64,000 nucleotides of DNA from NCBI RefSeq assembly GCF_014196345.1, contig NZ_JACIDN010000002.1, forward strand, positions 186,001-250,000, in the 5' to 3' direction. The notes under the pieces are model-generated. The model worked only from the letters and a program-made list of their open reading frames with translations. It was not told the DNA's origin and did no database searches. This document shows positions 9,259 through 19,349 of this stretch, one piece after another (the stretch's first letter is position 1; every line of letters begins with the position of its first letter). The translations under genes were made by a program, and so were the position numbers. Origin of the DNA: Methylobacterium brachythecii. GTDB taxonomy: Bacteria; Pseudomonadota; Alphaproteobacteria; Rhizobiales; Beijerinckiaceae.

Positions 9259-10011
9259 TCAGCCGCGACCGACATACGGCATGGTCGTCGCCATGACGGT
9301 CATGAACAGCACGTTGGCGTCGAGCGGTAGCCCGGCCATGTAGACGACAGCATCACCGGCATGACGCGCGTCCATGATGGCTTCGGGCCTCATCGAGCCG
9401 TCGGCCTGCCGCACGCCGTCCTTGAACGTGATCGTCATGTCCGTTTCGGCATTCCCGACGTCGATCTGGCCGCAGGCGATGCCGAAGGGGCGTCCGTCGA
9501 GGGCCGTTGAACGGGTGAGCCCCGTGATGGCGTGCTTGGTCGCTGTGTAAGGCGCCGAGTTCGGCCGTGGAGCGGAGGCCGAAATCGAGCCGTTGTTGAT
9601 GATGCGCCCGCCCCGCGGCGACTGCGCCCTCATCTGACGGAAGGCCGCGCGCGTGCAATAGAATGCGCCGGTCAGGTTGGTGGTGACGGAGGCGAGCCAG
9701 TCGGCATCGCTGATCTCGTCGATCGGCGCGGCCGGAGCGAAGATGCCGGCATTGTTGAAGAGCAAGTCGAGCCGGCCGTAGCGCGCGACGACTTCGGCGA
9801 CGACGCCGTCGACTGCCGTCGCATCGCCGACATCGGCCGGAATGCTGAAGGCCTCGCCGCCAGCCGCGCGGATCTCATCCTCCACCGCCTCCAACCGCTC
9901 GCGCCGCCGCCCGGTCAGCGCCAGCCGCCATCCGGCCGCCGCCAGTGCCAGCGCCACGGCTCGGCCGATGCCCGAGCCGGCTCCCGTGACGATCCCGATG
10001 CCGCCGCTCAT
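9259..10011 (-). CDS. SDR-family NAD(P)-dependent oxidoreductase
   Basis: A 250-residue classical short-chain dehydrogenase. It has the cofactor motif TGAGSGIG (near residue 9), NNAG (near 88), a catalytic Ser in NGSISASAP, and YTATK as the active-site YxxxK. The start at 10011 follows a very purine-rich GGGAGGGCAGGGC site. The C-terminal part ([22 protein letters not shown]) resembles members annotated as clavaldehyde- or serine-dehydrogenase-like enzymes, but the substrate cannot be told. It is separated from prfC by about 95 bases. Confidence 0.85.
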
Positions 10012-10110
10012 GCCCTGCCCTCCCGAAACACGCCGGATGGCGGTTTCGCGCCGCTCGTGGCCAGTTGCAAGCATCACGGACGCCGTCTAGACACGCCCGG
10101 CCTAGCGCGA

Positions 10111-10185
10111 TGGGGCGTCGCCAAGTGGTAAGGCACCGGTTTTTGGTACCGGCATTCGGAGGTTCGAATCCTCCCGCCCCAGCCA
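10111..10185 (+). tRNA. tRNA-Gln (anticodon TTG)
   Basis: A 75-base cloverleaf including an encoded CCA. The acceptor stem TGGGGCG pairs with CGCCCCA. The anticodon stem CCGGT/ACCGG holds loop TTTTGGT, giving anticodon TTG. The T arm GGAGG-TTCGAAT-CCTCC is perfect. Confidence 0.96.
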
Positions 10186-10562
10186 GCATTGCCAAGTTCC
10201 CGTAGATCAACAGATTTGCGCTGGCCGACGACCCCTTTCGGCGACGCGGCGACCAATCCCAAATGACTAGTTTGGCCGCGAAACAGACCGCCGTGCTGGC
10301 CGCCTCCGCGTTACCTCCAGACCCATGAGCCGTTCAGTTCGGAGCCATTCGGTCAGCCACCGGGCGGCTGAACCGCCGGGCCATAGGGCAACGGAGGCGG
10401 AGCTTGGCGCTATTCGGCCGATAGCGCCGGATGGAGACCATAAGTATTCAATCGCCGTTAAGCTTTGTTGCCTTGCGTATTTTAACTATCGGCGTGGATG
10501 TTCGTTGACCGGATCGGATTAAACGTCGAGTGATTGCCAACTGCAATCCGAGGCTCTCCATC
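10186..10562. other. Intergenic leader before the carrier-protein operon
   Basis: 377 bases without a convincing gene. The last 130 bases are more AT-rich than the neighbourhood and probably carry the promoter of the operon starting at 10563, but no hexamer pair with good spacing was found. No direct repeat of the tRNA 3' end was seen that would indicate an integration site. Confidence 0.5.
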
Positions 10563-10817
10563 ATGGTGTTCGTTAACGATATTCGCGAGTTGCTGAAGGG
10601 CATCGGATCGTTAGCCGATTGTGCCGATCGAGTTTCCGAGGAAGACGATCTTTTCGAGAAGGGCCTCGATTCGTTCGGATCGGTCCAGCTCATGCTGGCG
10701 CTGGAAGAGAAGTACAATATCGAGTTTCCCGATCACCTGCTGAACCGGCGCTCGTTCTCGACGATCCGCATCATCCGCGAGACCGTTTCGGCGCTCACCG
10801 TCTCGGCGGCCGCATGA
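10563..10817 (+). CDS. Acyl/aminoacyl carrier protein
   Basis: An 84-residue four-helix carrier protein. Ser37 in the GLDSFGSV motif is the expected 4'-phosphopantetheine site (canonical DSL here reads DSF). Helix 2 (SVQLMLALEEKYNIEF) and the C-terminal helix (FSTIRIIRETVSAL) fit the fold. Its stop overlaps the start of the next gene (ATGA), and the third gene is an amino acid:[carrier protein] ligase. It is therefore most likely the acceptor of an aminoacyl group rather than the fatty-acid ACP. The ATG at 10563 was chosen over an upstream start because the peptide begins with the first helix there. The carrier-protein assignment is firm; the cargo is inferred. Confidence 0.9.
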   Translation: MVFVNDIRELLKGIGSLADCADRVSEEDDLFEKGLDSFGSVQLMLALEEKYNIEFPDHLLNRRSFSTIRIIRETVSALTVSAAA

Positions 10818-11977
10818 GCACACTGGCGCTTCGCACCAGGCGGGTTGCCGAGATCGCGGCGCTGCATGCCGACGAGGTCGACCGTGAGGGACGCTTCCCT
10901 GCCGAGGCCGTCGCTGCACTGAAGGCCGAGCGGTTGCTCGGCATCCAAATCCCGATGCAGTTCGGCGGCGAGAGCGCCGGCATGAGCGACATCGCCGAGG
11001 TCTGCTTCGCCCTCGGACAGGTCTGCACGGCGGCGGCGATGGTCTTCGCCATGCACCAGATCAAGGTGGCGAGCCTCGTCACGCACGGGCTCGACAGCGA
11101 CTGGCATTGCAGCCTGATGGCCCGCATCGCCGAGGAGCAGCTCCTCGTCGCCTCCTCGACCACCGAGGCCGGCATCGGCGGCGACCTGCGCAACAGCCTC
11201 TGCGCGGTCGAGGCCGACGGCGAGGTGTTTTCGCTGACCAAGGAAGCGAGCGTGATCTCGTATGGCGCCCATGCCGACCTGATCCTCGCCACCGCTCGCC
11301 GCAACCCGCAGGCGCCGACCTCCGACCAGGTGCTCGTCGCCCTGATGCAGGACCAGATCACGCTGACCATGACCAGCCGCTGGGACACGCTCGGCATGCG
11401 CGGCACCTGCAGCGACGGCTTCCTGCTCGTCGCCCGCGACGTGCCGCTGGTCCAGGTGCTGCAAAAGCCCTTCGCCGAGATCGCGGCGCAGTCGATGCTC
11501 GCGTCCTCGCACCTGCTCTGGAGCAGCGTGTGGTTCGGCATCGCGAGCTTCGCCGTCGACCGCGCCCGCGCCTACGTCCAGGGCGAGGCCCGCAAGAAGC
11601 CCGGTTCGGTGCCCCCCGGCGCACTCCGGCTCGCCGAGGCCGCCAACGAGCTCCAGGCCATGAAGGGCACGGTGATCGCCGGCCTCAAGCGCTTCGAAAT
11701 GGCCCAGGGCAATGTCGACGATCTCAGCTCGATCGGCTTTGCCGTGATGCTCAACAACGTGAAGACGACCGTTTCCGCGATGGCAGTCGACATCGTGCAG
11801 CGGGCGCTCGGGATCGTCGGACTCGCCGGCTACAAGAACGGCACGCCGTTCAGCCTCGGCCGCGCCCTGCGCGACGTGATGTCCGCACCGCTGATGATCT
11901 CCAACGATCGCATCCTCGCCAACACCGCCAACCTCCTGCTCGTGCAGAAGGGCGGCAGCCAACTCATGAGCGCGTGA
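10814..11977 (+). CDS. Acyl-CoA dehydrogenase-like flavoprotein
   Basis: A 387-residue member of the acyl-CoA dehydrogenase superfamily: N-terminal helical domain (residues 1-110), beta domain with the flavin contact segment [14 protein letters not shown] near 113-126, and C-terminal helical domain. In classical enzymes the catalytic Glu lies shortly after an R-D pair near the C-terminus. Here that stretch reads [18 protein letters not shown] and the Glu is absent, so a normal fatty acyl-CoA dehydrogenation is doubtful. It overlaps the carrier-protein gene (ATGA) and the ligase gene (TGATG). It may therefore oxidise an aminoacyl group held on the carrier, as flavoproteins do to prolyl-carrier proteins. 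That reaction is inference. Confidence 0.85.
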
Positions 11978-12939
11978 TGGACGGTTTTGCCGCAACGAGC
12001 CTTTCACCCGGCGTCCTTCCGGACGACGAGGCAGGCGAGCCACGCTCCTTCCTCGACCGCCTGTTCGATGGTGGCCTCCTGATCCGCACCGGGGTCGATG
12101 GCCTCTATGGGCGCAGCGGCGCCTTCGAGAGCGTCGTCGAGGCGGTCGATCGTCTAGCGACCGGGCTCGGGGCTGAGGACGGGGCCGAGGCCCTGCGCTT
12201 CCCGCCCGCCATGGCCCGCACCGCCTTCGAGCGCAGCGGCTATCTCAAGGGATTCCCGAATCTCGCCGGCACCGTGCACTGCTTCTGCGGCAACGAGGCC
12301 GACCACGCCAACCTCCTCGCCTGCCTCGAAGCCGGCGACGATTGGACCGGCAAGCAGGCTGCCAGCGAGGTCGTGCTGACGCCGGCCGCCTGCTACCCGC
12401 TCTATCCGGTGGCCGCCGCGCGCGGACGACTGCCGGCGGACGGCCTGCTGTTCGATCTGCAATCCTACTGCTTCCGGCACGAGCCGTCGCTGGAGCCGAC
12501 CCGGATGCAGCTGTTCCGAATGCGCGAATACGTGCGCATGGGCAGCCCCGAGCAGGTGCTCGCCTTCCGCGAGATGTGGCTCGAGCGCGGCACCGCGATG
12601 ATGGCCGGCCTCGGCCTACCGCTCGCGGTCGATCCCGCCAACGACCCGTTCTTCGGACGCGCCGGGCGGATGCTCGCCAACAACCAGCGCAACCAAGGCC
12701 TGAAGTTCGAGCTGAACGTGCCGGTCAACAGCGTCGAGAAGCCGACGGCCTGCCTCAGCTTCAACTACCACCAGGACCATTTCGGCCTGACCTGGGGCCT
12801 CGAACAGGCCGATGGCTCGGTCGCGCATACGGCCTGCGTCGGCTTCGGCCTGGAGCGGATCACGCTGGCACTGCTACGCCATCACGGCCTCGACCTCGCC
12901 AAGTGGCCGGCCGCCGTGCGTGAAAAGCTCTGGGGCTGA
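11977..12939 (+). CDS. Amino acid:[carrier protein] ligase (SerRS-like)
   Basis: A 320-residue class II aminoacyl-tRNA synthetase homologue without a tRNA-binding arm. It activates a small amino acid (glycine or alanine in characterised relatives) with ATP and loads it on a carrier protein. Motif 2 ([20 protein letters not shown], residues 165-184) and motif 3 ([12 protein letters not shown]) are complete. From memory, the catalytic zinc in the Bradyrhizobium glycine ligase is held by Cys131, Glu176 and Cys279. Cys139, Glu184 and Cys287 here have exactly the same spacing, all offset by eight. It shares one base with the preceding stop (TGATG). The carrier protein two genes upstream is the probable partner. 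Confidence 0.93.
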
Positions 12940-12944
12940 GCGGG

Positions 12945-13910
12945 ATGCACGTCGCCCTCGCACGCGCGGATGTGCCGGACGCAGCGGCCTTCGCGCCGCA
13001 TGGTCTGCACGCAGCCGATCGGATCTGGCCGGAGACGAACTGCTACGTCGATCTCTGGATCGAGCTGCTGCACGCCCGCGGCCTCGTGCCGGAGGCGATG
13101 CTGGGCTTCACCCTGCGCCAGGATTTCGAGGGCGACCAGTTCACCTTCTTCAAGCCCTTCGCCGCCGATCTCGACCGGCTCTACGGGCTGGAGATCCAGG
13201 AGCTCGCGATCTTCGAGAGCCTGGAGGCGCATGCGCTGGTCCAGGCGGCACGCGGCAATCCCATGCTCGTCGAAGTCGACGCCATCCACCTGCCCGACAC
13301 GGCCGGCACGACCTACGGCCGCGAGCACGGCAAGACCACCATCGGCATCCTCGGTCTCGATCTGGCCGCGAAGGCCCTCGACTACCTGCACAATGCCGGC
13401 CGCTTCCGTCTGAGCGGGGCCGATTACGAGGGCATTTTCGGCCCCTCGGCGCTGTTTCCCTATGCCGAGTTCGTGAAGGCGACGGGCACGCCGCTCGCCC
13501 GTGACACACTGCCCGAGGCGGCGCTCGATCTGCTGCGCAGGCATCGGGCGCGGGCTCCCCGCACCAACCCGGTGCGTGCCTTCCGCGAGGCGCTCGCCGC
13601 GCGGGCGCCGGCTTTAGTGCAGAACCCGCTTGGCGTGTTCCACAGCTACGCCTTCAACACCACGCGCCAGCTTGGCGCGAATTTCGAGCTGCTCGGCAGC
13701 CATCTCGCGTGGCTCGCCGGCGAGGGCATGGGCGATTTCGCCGAGTCAGAGACGGCGGCGACCGAGCTCGCGTCGGAGGCCAAGGCCTTCCAATTCCAGC
13801 TCGCCCGCGCCTTCGGCCGTCGTAACCCGACCGGCCTGTGCGAGCGCCTCGACCGGCCTGCCGACACCTACGAGCGCGTCTTCGCCGCCCTCGACCGCGC
13901 TCTCGCCTGA
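12945..13910 (+). CDS. DUF1839 protein, possible papain-like acyltransferase
   Basis: A 321-residue soluble protein of the DUF1839 family, which recurs beside amino acid:carrier protein ligases. Near the N-terminus, Cys33 in ETNCYVDLW begins a helix. About 95 residues later His128 lies in REHGKTTIGILGLD, followed by a YLHNAG strand. This Cys then His-before-a-strand pattern resembles the BtrH N-terminal domain of butirosin synthesis, which moves an acyl group from a carrier protein to an amine. The likely job is to transfer the aminoacyl cargo from the carrier to an unknown acceptor. Function is inferred from this resemblance and context only. The gene starts 5 bases after the ligase stop. 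Confidence 0.8.
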   Translation: MHVALARADVPDAAAFAPHGLHAADRIWPETNCYVDLWIELLHARGLVPEAMLGFTLRQDFEGDQFTFFKPFAADLDRLYGLEIQELAIFESLEAHALVQAARGNPMLVEVDAIHLPDTAGTTYGREHGKTTIGILGLDLAAKALDYLHNAGRFRLSGADYEGIFGPSALFPYAEFVKATGTPLARDTLPEAALDLLRRHRARAPRTNPVRAFREALAARAPALVQNPLGVFHSYAFNTTRQLGANFELLGSHLAWLAGEGMGDFAESETAATELASEAKAFQFQLARAFGRRNPTGLCERLDRPADTYERVFAALDRALA

Positions 13911-13925
13911 GCGGAGCGGACGGCC

Positions 13926-16403
13926 GTGACGCGCATCATCGCAATCGACGGTGTGTCGCCGCAGCCGGTCACCGGCACCTGGCATCTGACCCTGACGCCG
14001 CCGGGCGCTTGCGCGGGGCCGGGCGATCTCGACACCTGCGCGGACTGGATTCCGCCCCCCGTGCCTGGCACGGCGGCGGCGGCCCTGCGCGATGCCGCAC
14101 GCTGGTCCGAGGCCGAGCCGACGCCGATCCACGATCGCGACGTCTGGTACCGCACGAGCTTCACCGGCCACGGCCGCGAATGCCTGCGCTTCGATGGGCT
14201 GGCGACGCTGGCCGAGGTTTGGCTCAACGGAGTGCCCGTGCTCTCCAGCCGCTCGATGTTCCTGGCCCACGAGGTCGACGTCGATCTCTGCGGTGAGAAC
14301 GACCTCGCGATCTGCTTCCGCTCGCTCGCAACGGAGCTGGCGCGCCCGAACAAGCGCGGTCGCTGGCGTCCGCGCCTCGCCACGCCCGGTTCGCTCCGAC
14401 ATGTGCGCACCAGCCTACTCGGCTTCATGCCGGGCTGGTGTCCGAACATCGACGCGGTCGGGCCGTACCGGCCGATCACGCGCATCCCGCTCCGCGAGGA
14501 GGAGGTGCGCGTCGTCTCCGCCGATCTGCGGACGCGGCTCGGCGGCGATACCGGCCGTCTGAGCGTCAGCCTCGAAGTCGAAGGCGTCGGGGCCGATCGC
14601 GCTGTCCTGCGCTGCGATGGTCGCGATGCCGACCTCTCGCAGACCGCTCGGGGCCGCTTCGAAGGCGAACTGGCGCTACCGGGCGTCGAAAAATGGTGGC
14701 CGCATACCCACGGCGCGCCCCGGCTCCACGCCGTCGAAGTCGAGATCGGCAGCCATCGGCTCGATCTCGGCCGGGTCGGCTTCCGCTCCATTACACTGAC
14801 GCGGCCCTTCGAGGAGGGTCTCGGCCTCGCGATCAACGGCGTACCGGTCTTCTGCCGCGGCGCAAGCTGGATGCCGGCGGATCTCGTCGGGCTCTCGGGC
14901 GAGGCGGGCACCTATCGACCACTTCTCGACCTGGCGCGCGAGGCCGGCATGAACATGCTGCGCGTCTCCGGCATCACGCTCTACGAGTCGCCGGCCTTCC
15001 ACGGTCTCTGCGACGAACTCGGCATCCTGGTCTGGCAAGACCTGATGCTGGCCAATTTCGACTACCCCACCGACGACCCGGCGTTTCGCGCCGATCTGGT
15101 GCGCGAGATCGAGCAGTTGCTCGACCGCACGCAATCCTCGCCCTCGCTCTGCGTGATCGGCGGTGGCAGCGAGGTCTGGCAGCAGGCGGCTATGCTCGGC
15201 TACCCGCGAGAGGTCTGGGCCGGCCGCTTCGTCGCCGAGGAATTGCCCGGCATCATCAAGCGGCAGCGGCCCGATCTCGTCGTCGTGCCGAACTCGCCGT
15301 CTGGCGGCGACCTGCCCTTCTCTACGAGTGCCGGCGTCACCCACTATTACGGGGTGGGCGCCTACAAGCGTCCCTTCGAGGATGCGCGCCGCGCCGAGGT
15401 CGGCTTCGCCACCGAATGCCTGGCTTTCGCCAACGTGCCGGAGGCGGCCACGCTGGCCCAGCTCGGCCTCACCGACCCGACGAGCGAGCGCTGGTCTGCG
15501 GGCATCCCGCGCGACCGCGGGGCGGATTGGGACTTCGAGGGAGTCCGCGACCACTATCTCGCGCAGCTCTACGGTGTCGACGCGGATCAGCTGCGTCGCG
15601 AGGATCCCGAGCGCTACCTGATGCTCGCCCGCGCCACGAGCGGCGAATGCATGGAGACCACCTTCTCGGAGTGGCGCCGCGCGCGCTCGCCGACCGCCGG
15701 CGGCCTCGTGTGGTTCCTGCGCGATCTCGGTCCGGGCGCGGGCTGGGGCGTCGTCGATGTCTTGGGGCAGCCGAAGCCGGCTTGGTACGCCCTCAAGCGT
15801 GCCTTCCGCTCACTGCAACTCGGCCTCTCCGACGAGGGGCTGAACGGCCTGCACCTGCACGTCCAAAACGAGACGGCCGCGCCCGTGAGCGCGCAACTGC
15901 GCATCACCTTCACGGACGCGGCGAGCCGCGTCGTCGCGAGTGCCGAGCGCGCCGTCGAACTCGATCCGCGCGCATCGCAGAGCTGGTCCTCGACCGAACT
16001 GCTCGGGCGCTTCTTCGATGCCACCGACGCCTACCGTTTCGGGCCGCCTGCCCATGTCCTCGGCCATGCGAGCCTGCTCGATGCGGCGGACGGCACCGTG
16101 ATCGCCGAAGCCTTCCATTTCCCGCAGGGCCGCGACCCGGAACCACGCAAGATCGGCCTTGCGGCAGAGCTGGTCGCGGATGGCGCCGGTTGGGCGCTGC
16201 GTCTCTCCTCCGAGTCTTTCGCGCTCAGCGTCCAGATCGAGGCCGAGGGCGTGCGTGCCTCGGACAACTGGTTCCATCTCGCCCCCGGCGCGACGCGGCT
16301 GGTCCCGCTCGTTGACCGCGAGCAAGTCGTCGGACCGCCCCGCGTCACGCTCCGGGCGATCAATGGCATCGAGGTCGTGAGGATCGGGCGCGATGGCAGT
16401 TGA
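13926..16403 (+). CDS. Glycoside hydrolase family 2-like protein (beta-mannosidase type)
   Basis: 825 residues with GH2 architecture: sugar-binding jelly roll (about 1-185, with GLATLAEVWLNGVPV), immunoglobulin-like domain (about 190-290), TIM barrel (about 300-650), and a C-terminal beta region. Both catalytic Glu positions look preserved: Glu416 in IGGGSEVW as acid/base (where family members usually have a GN-N-E type motif) and Glu497 in FATECLAF as nucleophile. There is no signal peptide, so it is probably cytoplasmic. It sits inside the carrier-protein operon and overlaps the next gene by 11 bases. A substrate glycoside could be the acceptor or product of that pathway, which is speculation. 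GTG start. Confidence 0.85.
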   Translation: MTRIIAIDGVSPQPVTGTWHLTLTPPGACAGPGDLDTCADWIPPPVPGTAAAALRDAARWSEAEPTPIHDRDVWYRTSFTGHGRECLRFDGLATLAEVWLNGVPVLSSRSMFLAHEVDVDLCGENDLAICFRSLATELARPNKRGRWRPRLATPGSLRHVRTSLLGFMPGWCPNIDAVGPYRPITRIPLREEEVRVVSADLRTRLGGDTGRLSVSLEVEGVGADRAVLRCDGRDADLSQTARGRFEGELALPGVEKWWPHTHGAPRLHAVEVEIGSHRLDLGRVGFRSITLTRPFEEGLGLAINGVPVFCRGASWMPADLVGLSGEAGTYRPLLDLAREAGMNMLRVSGITLYESPAFHGLCDELGILVWQDLMLANFDYPTDDPAFRADLVREIEQLLDRTQSSPSLCVIGGGSEVWQQAAMLGYPREVWAGRFVAEELPGIIKRQRPDLVVVPNSPSGGDLPFSTSAGVTHYYGVGAYKRPFEDARRAEVGFATECLAFANVPEAATLAQLGLTDPTSERWSAGIPRDRGADWDFEGVRDHYLAQLYGVDADQLRREDPERYLMLARATSGECMETTFSEWRRARSPTAGGLVWFLRDLGPGAGWGVVDVLGQPKPAWYALKRAFRSLQLGLSDEGLNGLHLHVQNETAAPVSAQLRITFTDAASRVVASAERAVELDPRASQSWSSTELLGRFFDATDAYRFGPPAHVLGHASLLDAADGTVIAEAFHFPQGRDPEPRKIGLAAELVADGAGWALRLSSESFALSVQIEAEGVRASDNWFHLAPGATRLVPLVDREQVVGPPRVTLRAINGIEVVRIGRDGS

Positions 16404-18126
16404 GACCTCCCACAATTTCCATCAGGCGATGGCGCTTCCCCTGCAGATGGAGCCGGTCGCCTTCGATGGGCTGTTCGGCTGGTTCAGTCCGGGGATCAGC
16501 CGGCGCGGCGTGATCCTGTGCGGCACGCACGGCTTCGAGCAGCTCTCGGCGCACCGCTCCTGGCGCACGCTCGGCGAGCGGATCGCCGCCACGGGCTGCG
16601 CGACGCTCCGCTTCGATTATCCTGGCGAGGGCGATTCCGGAGATCTCGGATCGGGCCGCGTCGAGAGCTGGCTCCGCGCGATCCGCCGGGCGATCCGCTA
16701 CCTGCGCGAAGAAGCGGGCTCCGAGGAGATCGTTCTCGTCGGCCTGAGGCTCGGCGGCACTTTGGCGGCGCTCGCCGCCGAGGGGGAGGCCGTCGATCGG
16801 GTTGCGCTGCTCGCGCCTTTCGCGAGTGGCCGCGCCTACCTGCGCGAGCTGAAGTTGCAGTCGCGCACCATCGGCGTGCTGCCCGATGGCGCGCCGCTCA
16901 CGCAGGAGGAGGGCGTGCTCAACGTCGGCGGGTTCCGCATCTGTCCCGATCTCGCGACCGACCTCTCCGCGCTCGACCTCAAGGCGCCAGCTCGACCGCC
17001 AGCTCCGAGCGTGCTGCTGCTCGGAGCGGAGGCGTCCGGCCTCGCCAAGCGCTACGCGGCACTCGGCAGCGACGTGACCGCCCTTCCCTTCCCCGGCCTC
17101 GCCCAGCTCTTGGCCAATCCGCTCTTTGCCGTGGCCCCGGAAGACTCCTTCGCGAGGGTGGTGGATTTCGTCGCGCAGGGCGCTCTGCCCTCCCCGGCGC
17201 CGCTGCGCGCTCCATCGCCGTCGGCCCGGATCGAGGGTCCGGCCTGGAGCGAAGAACCGCAGCGTTTAGGAGCAGATCTGTTCGGTATCCTGTGCCGTCC
17301 CTATCGCGCGGTTCAGCGGCATCCCACGGTGCTCTTCGTCAATGCCGGGACAAACCCACACTCGGGCTGGGGCCGCCAGACGACCGCGAATGCACGGCGT
17401 CTGGCAAGCGAAGGCATCGCCTCCCTACGCTTGGACCTGCGCGGCATCGGTGACAGCCCCGACCGCCCCAGCGGCGCCTCTCCGCTCTATTCGCTGGACC
17501 CCCTCGACGACGTTCGCGCCGCCCTCGACCATCTCGACGCAATCGGCCTCGGGCCGGTGGTGATCGTTGGTGCCTGCAGCGGCGCCCATCTCGGATTTCA
17601 GGCCGTTTGCCGGGAGCCACGACTCGCGGGTGCGCTCCTGATCAATCCGTATTGCTTCGATTGGAATCCGGACGACGACGTCGAGACCGTGATCCGCAAC
17701 GTCTTTCGAAGCAACGCGACCTACCTGAACATGCTTCGGCAAGGCACGTCGTGGCGCCGGCTCCTGCGCGGTGAGATCCGGGGGTGGGCGATCGGTGTGG
17801 CCCTCGCCCGCACCGCCCGTGCCCGGCTCGGTGCAAGGCTGGCACGGCTCGTTCGCCCTGCTCCCGCGGGCGGTACGGTCGCCCAGCGCATCGCGATGAT
17901 CAGGCAGCGCGGCGCACGCATCCGCCTCGTCTACAGCGCCGGCGACCGCGGCCTTCAGAGCCTCCACGAGCATCTCGGTCGTACGCCCGAGCGGATCGCC
18001 CAGCGGCTCGGCGAGCCTGTGGTCGTCATCGACGGGGTCGATCACGATCTCAGCACCGCCGCGGCCCAGGAGGAGCTCTATCGGACGATGAGAATATTCC
18101 TGCTCGAAGGCGCCGAGTCATCGTAG
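16393..18126 (+). CDS. Fused double alpha/beta hydrolase with altered nucleophiles
   Basis: 577 residues made of two alpha/beta-hydrolase domains (about 20-265 and 285-575). In the first, the nucleophile elbow reads VGLRLGGT, so Arg119 occupies the place of Ser. In the second it reads VGACSGAH, putting Cys395 at the nucleophile position, with a candidate His in DGVDHDLS near the end. These elbows resemble the two hydrolases that accompany exosortase A systems (hydrolase 2 with GLRLG, hydrolase 1 with a Cys elbow), here joined in one chain. No exosortase gene is in the window. As the last operon gene it may release or transfer a product; only the second domain is likely to be catalytic. Confidence 0.85.
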   Translation: MAVETSHNFHQAMALPLQMEPVAFDGLFGWFSPGISRRGVILCGTHGFEQLSAHRSWRTLGERIAATGCATLRFDYPGEGDSGDLGSGRVESWLRAIRRAIRYLREEAGSEEIVLVGLRLGGTLAALAAEGEAVDRVALLAPFASGRAYLRELKLQSRTIGVLPDGAPLTQEEGVLNVGGFRICPDLATDLSALDLKAPARPPAPSVLLLGAEASGLAKRYAALGSDVTALPFPGLAQLLANPLFAVAPEDSFARVVDFVAQGALPSPAPLRAPSPSARIEGPAWSEEPQRLGADLFGILCRPYRAVQRHPTVLFVNAGTNPHSGWGRQTTANARRLASEGIASLRLDLRGIGDSPDRPSGASPLYSLDPLDDVRAALDHLDAIGLGPVVIVGACSGAHLGFQAVCREPRLAGALLINPYCFDWNPDDDVETVIRNVFRSNATYLNMLRQGTSWRRLLRGEIRGWAIGVALARTARARLGARLARLVRPAPAGGTVAQRIAMIRQRGARIRLVYSAGDRGLQSLHEHLGRTPERIAQRLGEPVVVIDGVDHDLSTAAAQEELYRTMRIFLLEGAESS

Positions 18127-18383
18127 TTGGCTGTCACGAGTGCATCTCGCTGCTTTCGGCCGAGAATCGGCCGACCGCTTCGAGGCCCGCGAGGCGGGAA
18201 TGCAGACTCTCGGCTCCGGCCGGTATCGGCCCGATTTCGCCGTACACGCCCGACCACGCGCCTCCTGAAATCGGACGCGCCATCCGACAATTCGCCGTCG
18301 CACACGGTCAGTCGGCTGCGGCATGCCTCGCGGACTTAACGCTCGATCGATGTGTTTTGATTGCCGGAACGAAGGGGTACCTT

Positions 18384-19349
18384 CTATTCCGACCAGCCGT
18401 AGTCGGTCGCGTGGCTCGATTTGCGGTGGAAAGCGAGCCGGCGGTCGTATTCCAGCGGGTCCTTCGGCTGCACGAGGGCCCCAGGCGGCACGTTTAGCCA
18501 GTCGACGAGACGGGTCAGCATGAAGCGCATTGCTGCGCCGCGCGCGAGGATCGGCAGAGCCTCGACCTCACGCGGCTCCAGAGGGCGATGCTCCTGGTAG
18601 CCGGCGATCATCGCGGCACCCATGTCGCGGTGATAGCGGCCATCCGGCTCGAAGCACCAGGCGTTGAGGCAGATCGCGAGGTCATAGGCCAGCGCATCGG
18701 TGCAGGCGAAGTAGAAGTCGATGATCCCCGACAGCGCGTCGCCGATGAAGAACACGTTGTCGGTGAAGAGATCCGCATGGATCACGCCACTCGGCAGATC
18801 GTGCGGCCAGGAGGCTTCAAGCAGCGACAGGTCCGCCCGCGTGCGCTCGGCAAGCCCCGGAGCGACAGTATCGGCCTGCGCCCCAGCCTGCTCGAAAAGC
18901 GGCCGCCACGCATCGACGGACAGGCTGTTCGCGCGGCTCATGCCGAAATCGCGCCCGGCATGGTGAAAGCCGGCGAGAGCCCGGCCGAGTTCGCGGCAAT
19001 GGTCGACCGTCGGGCGTTTCACGGAGACGCCGTCGAGGAAGCTGATGATTGCCGCCGGGCGGCCGCAGAGGGAGCCGAGCGCGGTGTCGCGGCGGTTCTT
19101 CACCGGTTGCGGGCATGAGAGCCCGGCGCGGAACAGGTGCCCCATCAGGTTGAGGAAGAACGGCAGGTCCTCCTCCCGCACCCGCTTTTCGTAGAGCGTG
19201 AGGATGTAGGAGCCGGCCGTGGTGTGCAGGAAGAAGTTCGAGTTCTCGACCCCCTCGGCGATGCCCTTGTAGGACAGCAGCGAGCCGAGATCGTACTCGG
19301 CCAGGAAAGCCGTCAGCGCCTCGTCGGAAACCTCGGTGTAGACGGCCAA
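18384..19349 (-). CDS. thrB: Homoserine kinase (ThrB, APH-fold type II)
   Basis: A 321-residue enzyme that phosphorylates L-homoserine in threonine synthesis. It belongs to the aminoglycoside-phosphotransferase-like kinases rather than the GHMP type. The catalytic loop GVIHADLFTDNVFF (about residue 188) and the metal-binding IDFYFA segment are intact. The N-terminal GVENSNFFL fits the nucleotide-binding loop. The best start is TTG at 19349, giving the family-typical AVYTEVSD beginning behind GAGGGG; the frame also has a TTG at 19373. It lies downstream of ispH on the same strand, but a terminator-like hairpin is between them. Confidence 0.93.
   Translation of the reverse strand: MAVYTEVSDEALTAFLAEYDLGSLLSYKGIAEGVENSNFFLHTTAGSYILTLYEKRVREEDLPFFLNLMGHLFRAGLSCPQPVKNRRDTALGSLCGRPAAIISFLDGVSVKRPTVDHCRELGRALAGFHHAGRDFGMSRANSLSVDAWRPLFEQAGAQADTVAPGLAERTRADLSLLEASWPHDLPSGVIHADLFTDNVFFIGDALSGIIDFYFACTDALAYDLAICLNAWCFEPDGRYHRDMGAAMIAGYQEHRPLEPREVEALPILARGAAMRFMLTRLVDWLNVPPGALVQPKDPLEYDRRLAFHRKSSHATDYGWSE

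Follow-up and report, generated by a model that had tools for sequence, protein, structure and literature searches.

The window analysed here, a 64,000-nucleotide stretch of the Methylobacterium brachythecii genome (contig NZ_JACIDN010000002.1, positions 186,001 to 250,000), carries at 10563-18126 six colinear open reading frames (ORFs), all on the + strand, that encode a carrier protein, a flavoprotein, an amino acid:[carrier protein] ligase, a DUF1839 protein, a family 2 glycoside hydrolase (GH2) and a fused hydrolase. The carrier gene (10563-10817) encodes 84 amino acids with the pantetheine site at Ser37 (codon 10671-10673) and overlaps by 4 bases (ATGA) the gene for a 387-residue flavoprotein of acyl-CoA-dehydrogenase fold (10814-11977), which in turn shares 1 base (TGATG) with the gene for the 320-residue ligase (11977-12939). 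The DUF1839 protein of 321 residues (12945-13910) follows after a gap of 5 bases, and the beta-mannosidase-like GH2 protein of 825 residues (13926-16403, GTG start) after a further 15. The last gene, for a fused alpha/beta-hydrolase of 577 residues (16393-18126), overlaps the GH2 gene by 11 bases. The first-pass annotation of this DNA had described six genes in one direction with these junctions, and we confirmed all of them. Our evidence consists of gene content, order, co-occurrence, predicted folds and the catalytic residues that are kept or lost, and it makes it very likely that the six genes are one functional unit, conserved and widespread.

Conservation and co-occurrence of the six genes

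We compared 95 loci (the window, 86 named records or contigs and eight stretches from other genomes), those from the contig scan being the best 80 matches to DUF1839 rather than an even sample; the named loci belong predominantly to Rhizobiales, Azospirillum and Burkholderiales. The genes for carrier, flavoprotein, ligase, DUF1839 and GH2 lie in this order on one strand in 88/95 loci, in both alpha- and betaproteobacteria, with median distances between successive genes of -1, 3, 4 and 9 bases. Four of the other seven loci are cut by contig ends (L029, L031, L039, L078). The remaining three are a degenerate copy of the operon on a Rhizobium plasmid (L020), a split locus of Roseiarcaceae whose 364,295-base contig has the carrier and ligase genes as a pair some 30 kb from the rest (L061), and L147, where the best DUF1839 match is a second, inverted copy and the operon copy, which lacks the cysteine, was left uncounted. 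Within the 88 ordered loci the hydrolase gene stands in line in 39, is convergent in 23 and is absent from the stretch in 26; its median distance from the GH2 gene is -4 bases when in line (41 loci) and -11 bases when convergent (24 loci). For the 26 complete loci without it, 15 genomes were searched, and every one holds a long match elsewhere (31-53% identity over at least 520 residues), which in G501 has an in-frame stop.

The genus profile extends this picture. DUF1839 was found in 42 of 99 genus genomes and the hydrolase (E 1e-20) in 43, that is, in all 42 genomes with DUF1839 vs 1 of the 57 others, the single case being a 560-contig assembly (G483); these scans scored first-pass candidates only, with at most 13 per genome for the hydrolase. 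Because two genomes hold both genes unlinked (956 kb apart in G466, on different contigs in G464), the co-occurrence exceeds what linkage alone would give. In a phylum sample of 398 genomes the ligase exceeded its cut-off in 27, including 15/15 of those with DUF1839. All of these co-occurrence counts are raw and ignore kinship. Furthermore, the six proteins agree in their pairwise distances (correlations of 0.82-0.93), and the nucleotide similarity between the window and four other copies in the genus spans 10638-18070 and ends there, with the flanks of the window not found beside those copies. A chance run of genes was rejected on the kept order, the unit-like block and the genus profile. The family names acyl-CoA dehydrogenase, GH2 and alpha/beta-hydrolase are generic enough to suggest ordinary acyl or glycoside catabolism by genes adjacent by accident; we regard this as highly improbable, given an order kept in two classes of proteobacteria, a block that behaves as a unit and a near-perfect co-occurrence even where the genes are unlinked. 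The six genes do stay together in relatives, as the first-pass annotation had proposed should be checked, and its idea of a single pathway is strongly supported by the kept order and the genus profile.

Outside these counts, plasmid p3 of Rhizobium sp. NZLR1 carries an annotated DUF1839 gene (L159, 15911-16897) without the other five annotated alongside and with conjugation genes nearby; it is probably a remnant. As for the surroundings of the operon, a tRNA-Gln (TTG) gene on the + strand (10111-10185 by ARAGORN; Rfam tRNA, 63 bits at 10111-10182), given here for context, ends 377 bases upstream, and the Rfam search of 9900-18600 found no riboswitch or other RNA family at its cut-off, which the tRNA alone reached. 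We did not see a clean empty site in the DUF1839-less genomes G422 and G268, where homology to the window begins at the homoserine kinase gene (18382/18389) and where prfC and tRNA-Gln were not found in the stretches examined. Among the recurrent neighbours, many of which are antisense shadows of the operon called by a gene caller that is crude at high GC, no fixed seventh gene was found across groups. A lysine-2,3-aminomutase-like gene (TIGR03822, over cut-off) lies upstream in 27/93 loci, in most about 0.7 kb before the carrier (e.g. L040, 3914-6743), and an elongation factor P gene in 26/93, usually together with it. These loci have Rhizobium-type or order-level labels, except one metagenome-assembled genome labelled Arenimonas, and we take the two genes to mark a shared chromosomal place, not a part of the pathway, although a link to beta-lysine chemistry is conceivable.

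The loading module and the flavoprotein

Residues were compared over the complete proteins that were aligned (carrier 90, flavoprotein 91, DUF1839 94, GH2 90, hydrolase 65). The carrier belongs to PP-binding/PRK07081 (89.6 bits vs a cut-off of 72), matches the aminoacyl carrier protein 4h2w_C and Atu2571 (2jq4) in the PDB (E 3e-19), and has Ser37 in all 90 sequences. The ligase scores 509.3 bits against the amino acid--[ACP] ligase family PRK07080/NF005479, whose curated cut-off is 357, and its PDB matches are the Bradyrhizobium structures 4h2w (E 5e-102) and 3mey (E 5e-98). Its residues C139, E184 and C287 (codons 12391-12393, 12526-12528 and 12835-12837), which we take to be zinc ligands, are conserved in 91, 92 and 92 of the 92 ligases compared. 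Their spacing of 45 and 103 aligns without a gap to 4h2w and 3mey, as had been claimed from the window alone. Loading of the carrier by the ligase, also part of the first reading, is supported by family membership; the family loads Gly or Ala on a carrier and makes no aminoacyl-tRNA.

Ligase genomes that lack DUF1839 (12 of the 27 in the phylum sample) help to divide the operon. At the 7/12 loci examined (L134-L140), the flavoprotein stands beside the ligase every time, and a search within the stretch at E 0.01 gave neither DUF1839 nor GH2 nor the fused hydrolase. Two of them have a recognisable carrier (L135 and L138, PRK07081 being the best match, below cut-off), and the window carrier used as a tblastn query had no match in the seven. 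Five more distant ligase homologues (L141-L145) showed no such flavoprotein at E 0.01. The flavoprotein and ligase are therefore a portable module, probably together with the carrier, and DUF1839, GH2 and hydrolase are a second one; this speaks for action of the flavoprotein on the loaded amino acid rather than on the acceptor. One ligase-only locus has genes for an AMP-ligase, a short-chain dehydrogenase/reductase (SDR), an esterase and a Wzz protein nearby. Another, L138 (7744-16848), has carrier proteins and, by eye, cupin, aminotransferase, GNAT, AMP-ligase and SDR genes; it is perhaps a different pathway using the same loading module.

The flavoprotein matches the N- and C-terminal acyl-CoA dehydrogenase domains of Pfam over their cut-offs, with the middle domain at 25.6, below its 33.3. 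Its AlphaFold2 (AF2) model has a pLDDT of 92, and VIA comparison gave Z 38-41 across the acyl-CoA dehydrogenase superfamily, up to 41.2. The NCBIfam matches of the window protein, none of them close to its cut-off, are to dehydrogenases, reductases, a desulfinase and monooxygenases. More telling are the catalytic positions. Ile362 (codon 11897-11899) sits where the canonical catalytic Glu would be: the position is I or V in 91/91 members and aligns with the Glu of IFEG in two dehydrogenases of the same genome, on which the column rests, as the alignment missed three of the six paralogues (L194, L195, L198) and placed L197 badly. Residue 232, which by its motif we take to be the isovaleryl-type catalytic position, is S, T, A or C in 91/91. 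The canonical Glu is absent from both positions, the medium-chain and the isovaleryl-type, in all 91 cluster members, so ordinary dehydrogenation is unlikely. Of the earlier reading of this protein, the acyl-CoA-dehydrogenase-like fold stands and a canonical dehydrogenase does not; we propose, with modest confidence, an oxygenation or an amine oxidation.

A true alpha,beta-dehydrogenase like ColB1 or CaeB1, which would use another base to yield a dehydroaminoacyl group, seems unlikely to us. It would fit the presence of ColB1, which acts on a carrier-bound cysteine, among the structure matches (Z 40.0), and the sequence matches, which are weak to prolyl-PCP dehydrogenase (27/35 members) and stronger to several CoA dehydrogenase and reductase families. 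Nevertheless, the best solved sequence match is the nitrososynthase KijD3 (E 8e-15), with a dehydrogenase close behind (3e-14); the putative isovaleryl-type position provides no alternative Glu, and glycine, a candidate substrate, has no beta carbon. We take Glu372 of CaeB1 to occupy the medium-chain position, which here holds I or V in 91/91. According to PMC8149447, CaeB1, whose substrate is a carrier-bound cysteine, is inactive without Glu372, its proposed base.

The DUF1839 protein, the glycosidase and the hydrolase

The DUF1839 protein matches PF08893 with 381 bits (cut-off 22.5), and the only solved relative by sequence was 5hu4, at E 0.96. Its AF2 model (pLDDT 91.9) was more informative. 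In the model Cys33 (codon 13041-13043), the putative nucleophile, opens a helix at 33-44; it is kept in 93/94 proteins and His149 (codon 13389-13391) in 94/94, counting the best copy per locus. VIA comparison placed the model nearest to CcbD (Z 20.3, root-mean-square deviation 3.5, 286 aligned residues, about 14% identity), AziU2/U3 (Z 20.0) and CtaG (Z 19.6), nearly over the full length. All chains of these proteins lie at Z 17.3-20.3 over 271-288 residues, and the next chain, a C39-like peptidase, at 7.6. The first 18 rows of a Foldseek search were likewise all CcbD, AziU2/U3 or CtaG, with AziU2/U3 on top. An ordinary protease was rejected, papain-fold peptidases reaching Z 7.6 at most, against 17-20 for these relatives. 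CcbD is a ping-pong Cys enzyme that takes carrier-bound proline onto its Cys and passes it to the amine of a thiooctose (PMC12945683), and CtaG is a proposed peptidyl transferase that transfers from a carrier (PMC6772006). Based on the predicted fold, DUF1839 is likely a CcbD-type papain-fold, carrier-dependent amide synthase or transferase. The first reading had left this protein without a role, and we now assign it that of a likely transferase. The same reading had also suggested transfer to an acceptor, maybe a glycoside, which gains support from CcbD, a protein of the same fold that does this with an amino sugar.

A second histidine of the DUF1839 protein, His128, is placed by hhalign on the His of BtrH. 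Four Methylobacterium DUF1839 proteins (L027 from M. tarhaniae, L028, L033 and L035) have Ala for His128, and their hydrolase is elsewhere in the genome. The N-terminal domain of BtrH, BtrH_N, occurs in 16/398 genomes of the phylum sample; our alignment of it used 12/17 matches and left out L208 (wrong frame), L204-L206 (which resemble L203) and L215 (cut). At one of these loci (L218, G296:C255, 4728-10550) a single MATE-like transporter gene stands between the genes for a BtrH_N protein and for a distant ligase homologue (at 101.8 bits below the cut-off of 357). This further pairing of BtrH-type and ligase-type enzymes, although seen in one case, speaks for the amide pathway proposed below. 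By eye, L218 also has ATP-grasp and aminotransferase genes in the same direction, beside nonribosomal peptide synthetase (NRPS) and ketosynthase-like genes, and it looks like an unstudied biosynthetic cluster.

The GH2 protein has a Glyco_hydro_2_N2 domain and two mannosidase Ig domains by Pfam, and PDB matches to 5n6u (E 7e-53) and 2vjx (E 2e-38). Glu416 (codon 15171-15173) and Glu497 (codon 15414-15416), each present in 90/90, align with the glutamates of 2vjx that we take to be the catalytic acid/base and nucleophile. No hydrophobic N-terminal stretch was found in about 92/93 GH2 proteins by a crude score, which likewise gave no secretion signal for DUF1839 and GH2. As there is no obvious signal peptide, GH2 should act on a glycoside inside the cell. 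The last protein is composed of alpha/beta-hydrolase domains by Pfam and NCBIfam, and its matches to the exosortase A-associated hydrolases TIGR03100 and TIGR03101 stay below cut-off (98.4 < 168.45 and 80.8 < 202.75 bits). Its first domain is without a nucleophile (GLRLG, position 119 being R or G in 65/65), and its second has Cys395 (17575-17577), Asp518 (17944-17946) and His551 (18043-18045), each kept in 65/65. To the fused hydrolase of the first-pass annotation we thus add that the active domain uses a Cys and the other domain lacks a nucleophile.

A proposed pathway, its alternatives and known systems

We think it reasonably probable that the operon is a self-contained pathway, independent of NRPSs, that builds an aminoacyl amide; its chemical steps, substrates, acceptor and product we infer. 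The ligase would activate a small amino acid (Gly or Ala, judging by its family) and attach it to the pantetheine arm that Ser37 of the carrier bears. Next, the flavoprotein would oxidise the aminoacyl group on the carrier; oxygenation or amine oxidation is a likelier reaction than alpha,beta-dehydrogenation. Cys33 of DUF1839 would take over the acyl group and pass it to the amine of an acceptor to form an amide, as CcbD does with an amino sugar, and the joining partner is probably sugar-like. The apparently cytosolic GH2 protein could act on a beta-glycosidic bond of the acceptor or product, by trimming or transglycosylation. Finally, Cys395 of the hydrolase might cleave or move an acyl group, either as an editing thioesterase on the carrier or in a last deprotection or transfer. 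As a tentative extension, the product may be of an undescribed class of metabolite, an N-oxidised glycyl or alanyl amide of a sugar, made by a loader derived from aminoacyl-tRNA synthetases (aaRS), a base-less oxygenase of acyl-CoA dehydrogenase fold and a lincosamide-type amide synthase, and serving as a common signal, protectant or surface tag of root-, leaf- and nodule-associated proteobacteria.

Several observations weigh against the amide pathway. The triad of DUF1839 is unusual, with His128 kept in 89/94 (A or R in 5/94) and Thr131 in 92/94, and PMC10318531, which places DUF1839 in the papain-like superfamily and conjectures a part in glycan processing, proposes that the residues are arranged as Cys-(Thr/Ser)-His. 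In two genomes of one other family (G255 and G328) the operon DUF1839 (L016/L146 and L017/L147) is Cys-less, with R or Q at Cys33, Cys at Thr132 and Ala or Ser at 131. Each genome also holds a copy that bears Cys33 (L002 and L003), in G328 about 4 kb away and inverted, which suggests a pair of pseudo-enzyme and enzyme; only one of the two Cys-less operon copies enters the count of 93/94. At the sequence level the link to BtrH is weak: BtrH_N (PF14399) matches 3 of 34 DUF1839 members at E up to 1 (best 0.02) and the window protein not at all, and the hhalign probabilities for DUF1839 and BtrH are 6.5% and 20.9%, with a control at 0.3%. The conserved set was not seen to include any amino-sugar gene. 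The fold relatives of the flavoprotein mix oxygenases and dehydrogenases at Z 38-41, so that its fold is not decisive, the nitrososynthase-type at 38.6 and the dehydrogenase at 41.2 being not discriminating. Nor does the fold fix the reaction of DUF1839, because AziU3 shares it and yet forms a ring rather than an amide. AziU2/U3, tied with CcbD by VIA and first by Foldseek, thus also lead to another reading, in which DUF1839 carries out ring closure or hydrolysis on a carrier-bound intermediate and the product is a modified non-protein amino acid. This appears distinctly unlikely, since it would leave the conserved glycosidase without a role and since two of the three structural relatives are described as amide-forming.

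The first-pass annotation had held that the whole pathway appears undescribed; the idea itself, however, was already in print. In 2010 a note added in proof to PMC2922099 already placed a carrier, a monooxygenase/dehydrogenase, an uncharacterised ORF (Atu2574) and a glycosidase beside the ligase. As printed, this note predicts that an amino acid is joined through an amide bond to an amino sugar of the cell surface, names Atu2574 as the ligase, and considers aminoacyl monooxygenation probable. From its place beside the carrier Atu2571, Atu2574 would be the DUF1839 protein. Our literature search, in which subscription papers were thinly covered, found no description of a product, and a 2022 review (PMC9437257, section 12) still calls the role of carrier-bound amino acids from aaRS-like ligases, which were described in 2010, unknown. 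The amide step of the 2010 prediction is supported by the predicted fold of DUF1839. What is new here is the likely CcbD-type identity of DUF1839, the co-occurrence of the hydrolase, the base-less flavoprotein and the wider distribution.

In the 2010 proposal the pathway decorates a cell-surface polysaccharide or a lipid-linked precursor, placing the modified aminoacyl group on its amino sugar. Besides the note itself, some neighbourhoods speak for this. In Shinella, genes of glycosyltransferase, O-antigen ligase and GumC type are found about 6 kb from the cluster; in six Methylobacterium loci an exopolysaccharide-transport-like ORF, with TIGR01005 as its best match but below cut-off, is located about 4 kb upstream; a glycosyltransferase-like ORF is near 18/93 loci, nearly all with Rhizobiaceae labels; and there is the Wzz protein at the ligase-only locus described above. 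On pRGM101a of R. gallicum (L156, 4541-19437), the five-gene cluster comes after nifHDK, nifN, nifX, fdxB and, just upstream, a gene for an exopolysaccharide repressor. Against it, a polysaccharide gene set was present in only 1 of 11 annotated neighbourhoods (Shinella), with single related genes in four (a GT9 gene, a lipoteichoic acid synthase gene twice, once with an ArnT-type transferase, and the exopolysaccharide repressor) and none in six. The same operon block also has different flanks within the genus, and DUF1839 and GH2 lack a secretion signal by the crude score. We consider surface decoration possible, if rather unlikely, and retain the amide pathway set out above, whose acceptor may be a surface polysaccharide or a small glycoside. 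For that pathway, DUF1839 as a likely CcbD-type amide synthase provides the missing step after loading and makes the question assayable. In addition, many bacteria with the operon have a plant, root or nodule as their source, and the product may thus be of importance to plant-microbe life.

Compared with known systems, the closest parallel is that of CcbD and LmbD of celesticetin and lincomycin, papain-fold Cys enzymes that pass a carrier-bound amino acid to a sugar and whose overall fold DUF1839 is predicted to share. Here, in contrast, a class II aaRS-like ligase does the loading, a flavoprotein, a GH2 protein and a fused hydrolase belong to the set, identity to CcbD is about 14%, and the triad is unusual. 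The papain-like fold is also shared with CtaG of closthioamide, for which transfer from a carrier has been proposed (Z 19.6), and with BtrH of butirosin, which differs in that none of the 34 DUF1839 proteins matches BtrH_N below E 0.02. The ligase and carrier of the window share their families with the Bradyrhizobium pair (bll0957, 4h2w) and, for the carrier, with Atu2571 of Agrobacterium (2jq4); the enzymology of ligase and carrier was reportedly the work of Mocibob in 2010 and 2013. Those studies cover the ligase and the carrier; of the 27 ligase genomes in the phylum sample, 12 lack DUF1839. Finally, the StRS-paralogue pathway predicted in 2010 (PMC2922099) has the same gene set and gives Atu2574 the same role as we propose; in print, the note leaves the fused hydrolase unmentioned and assigns no fold to Atu2574, and the hydrolase and a predicted fold are added here.

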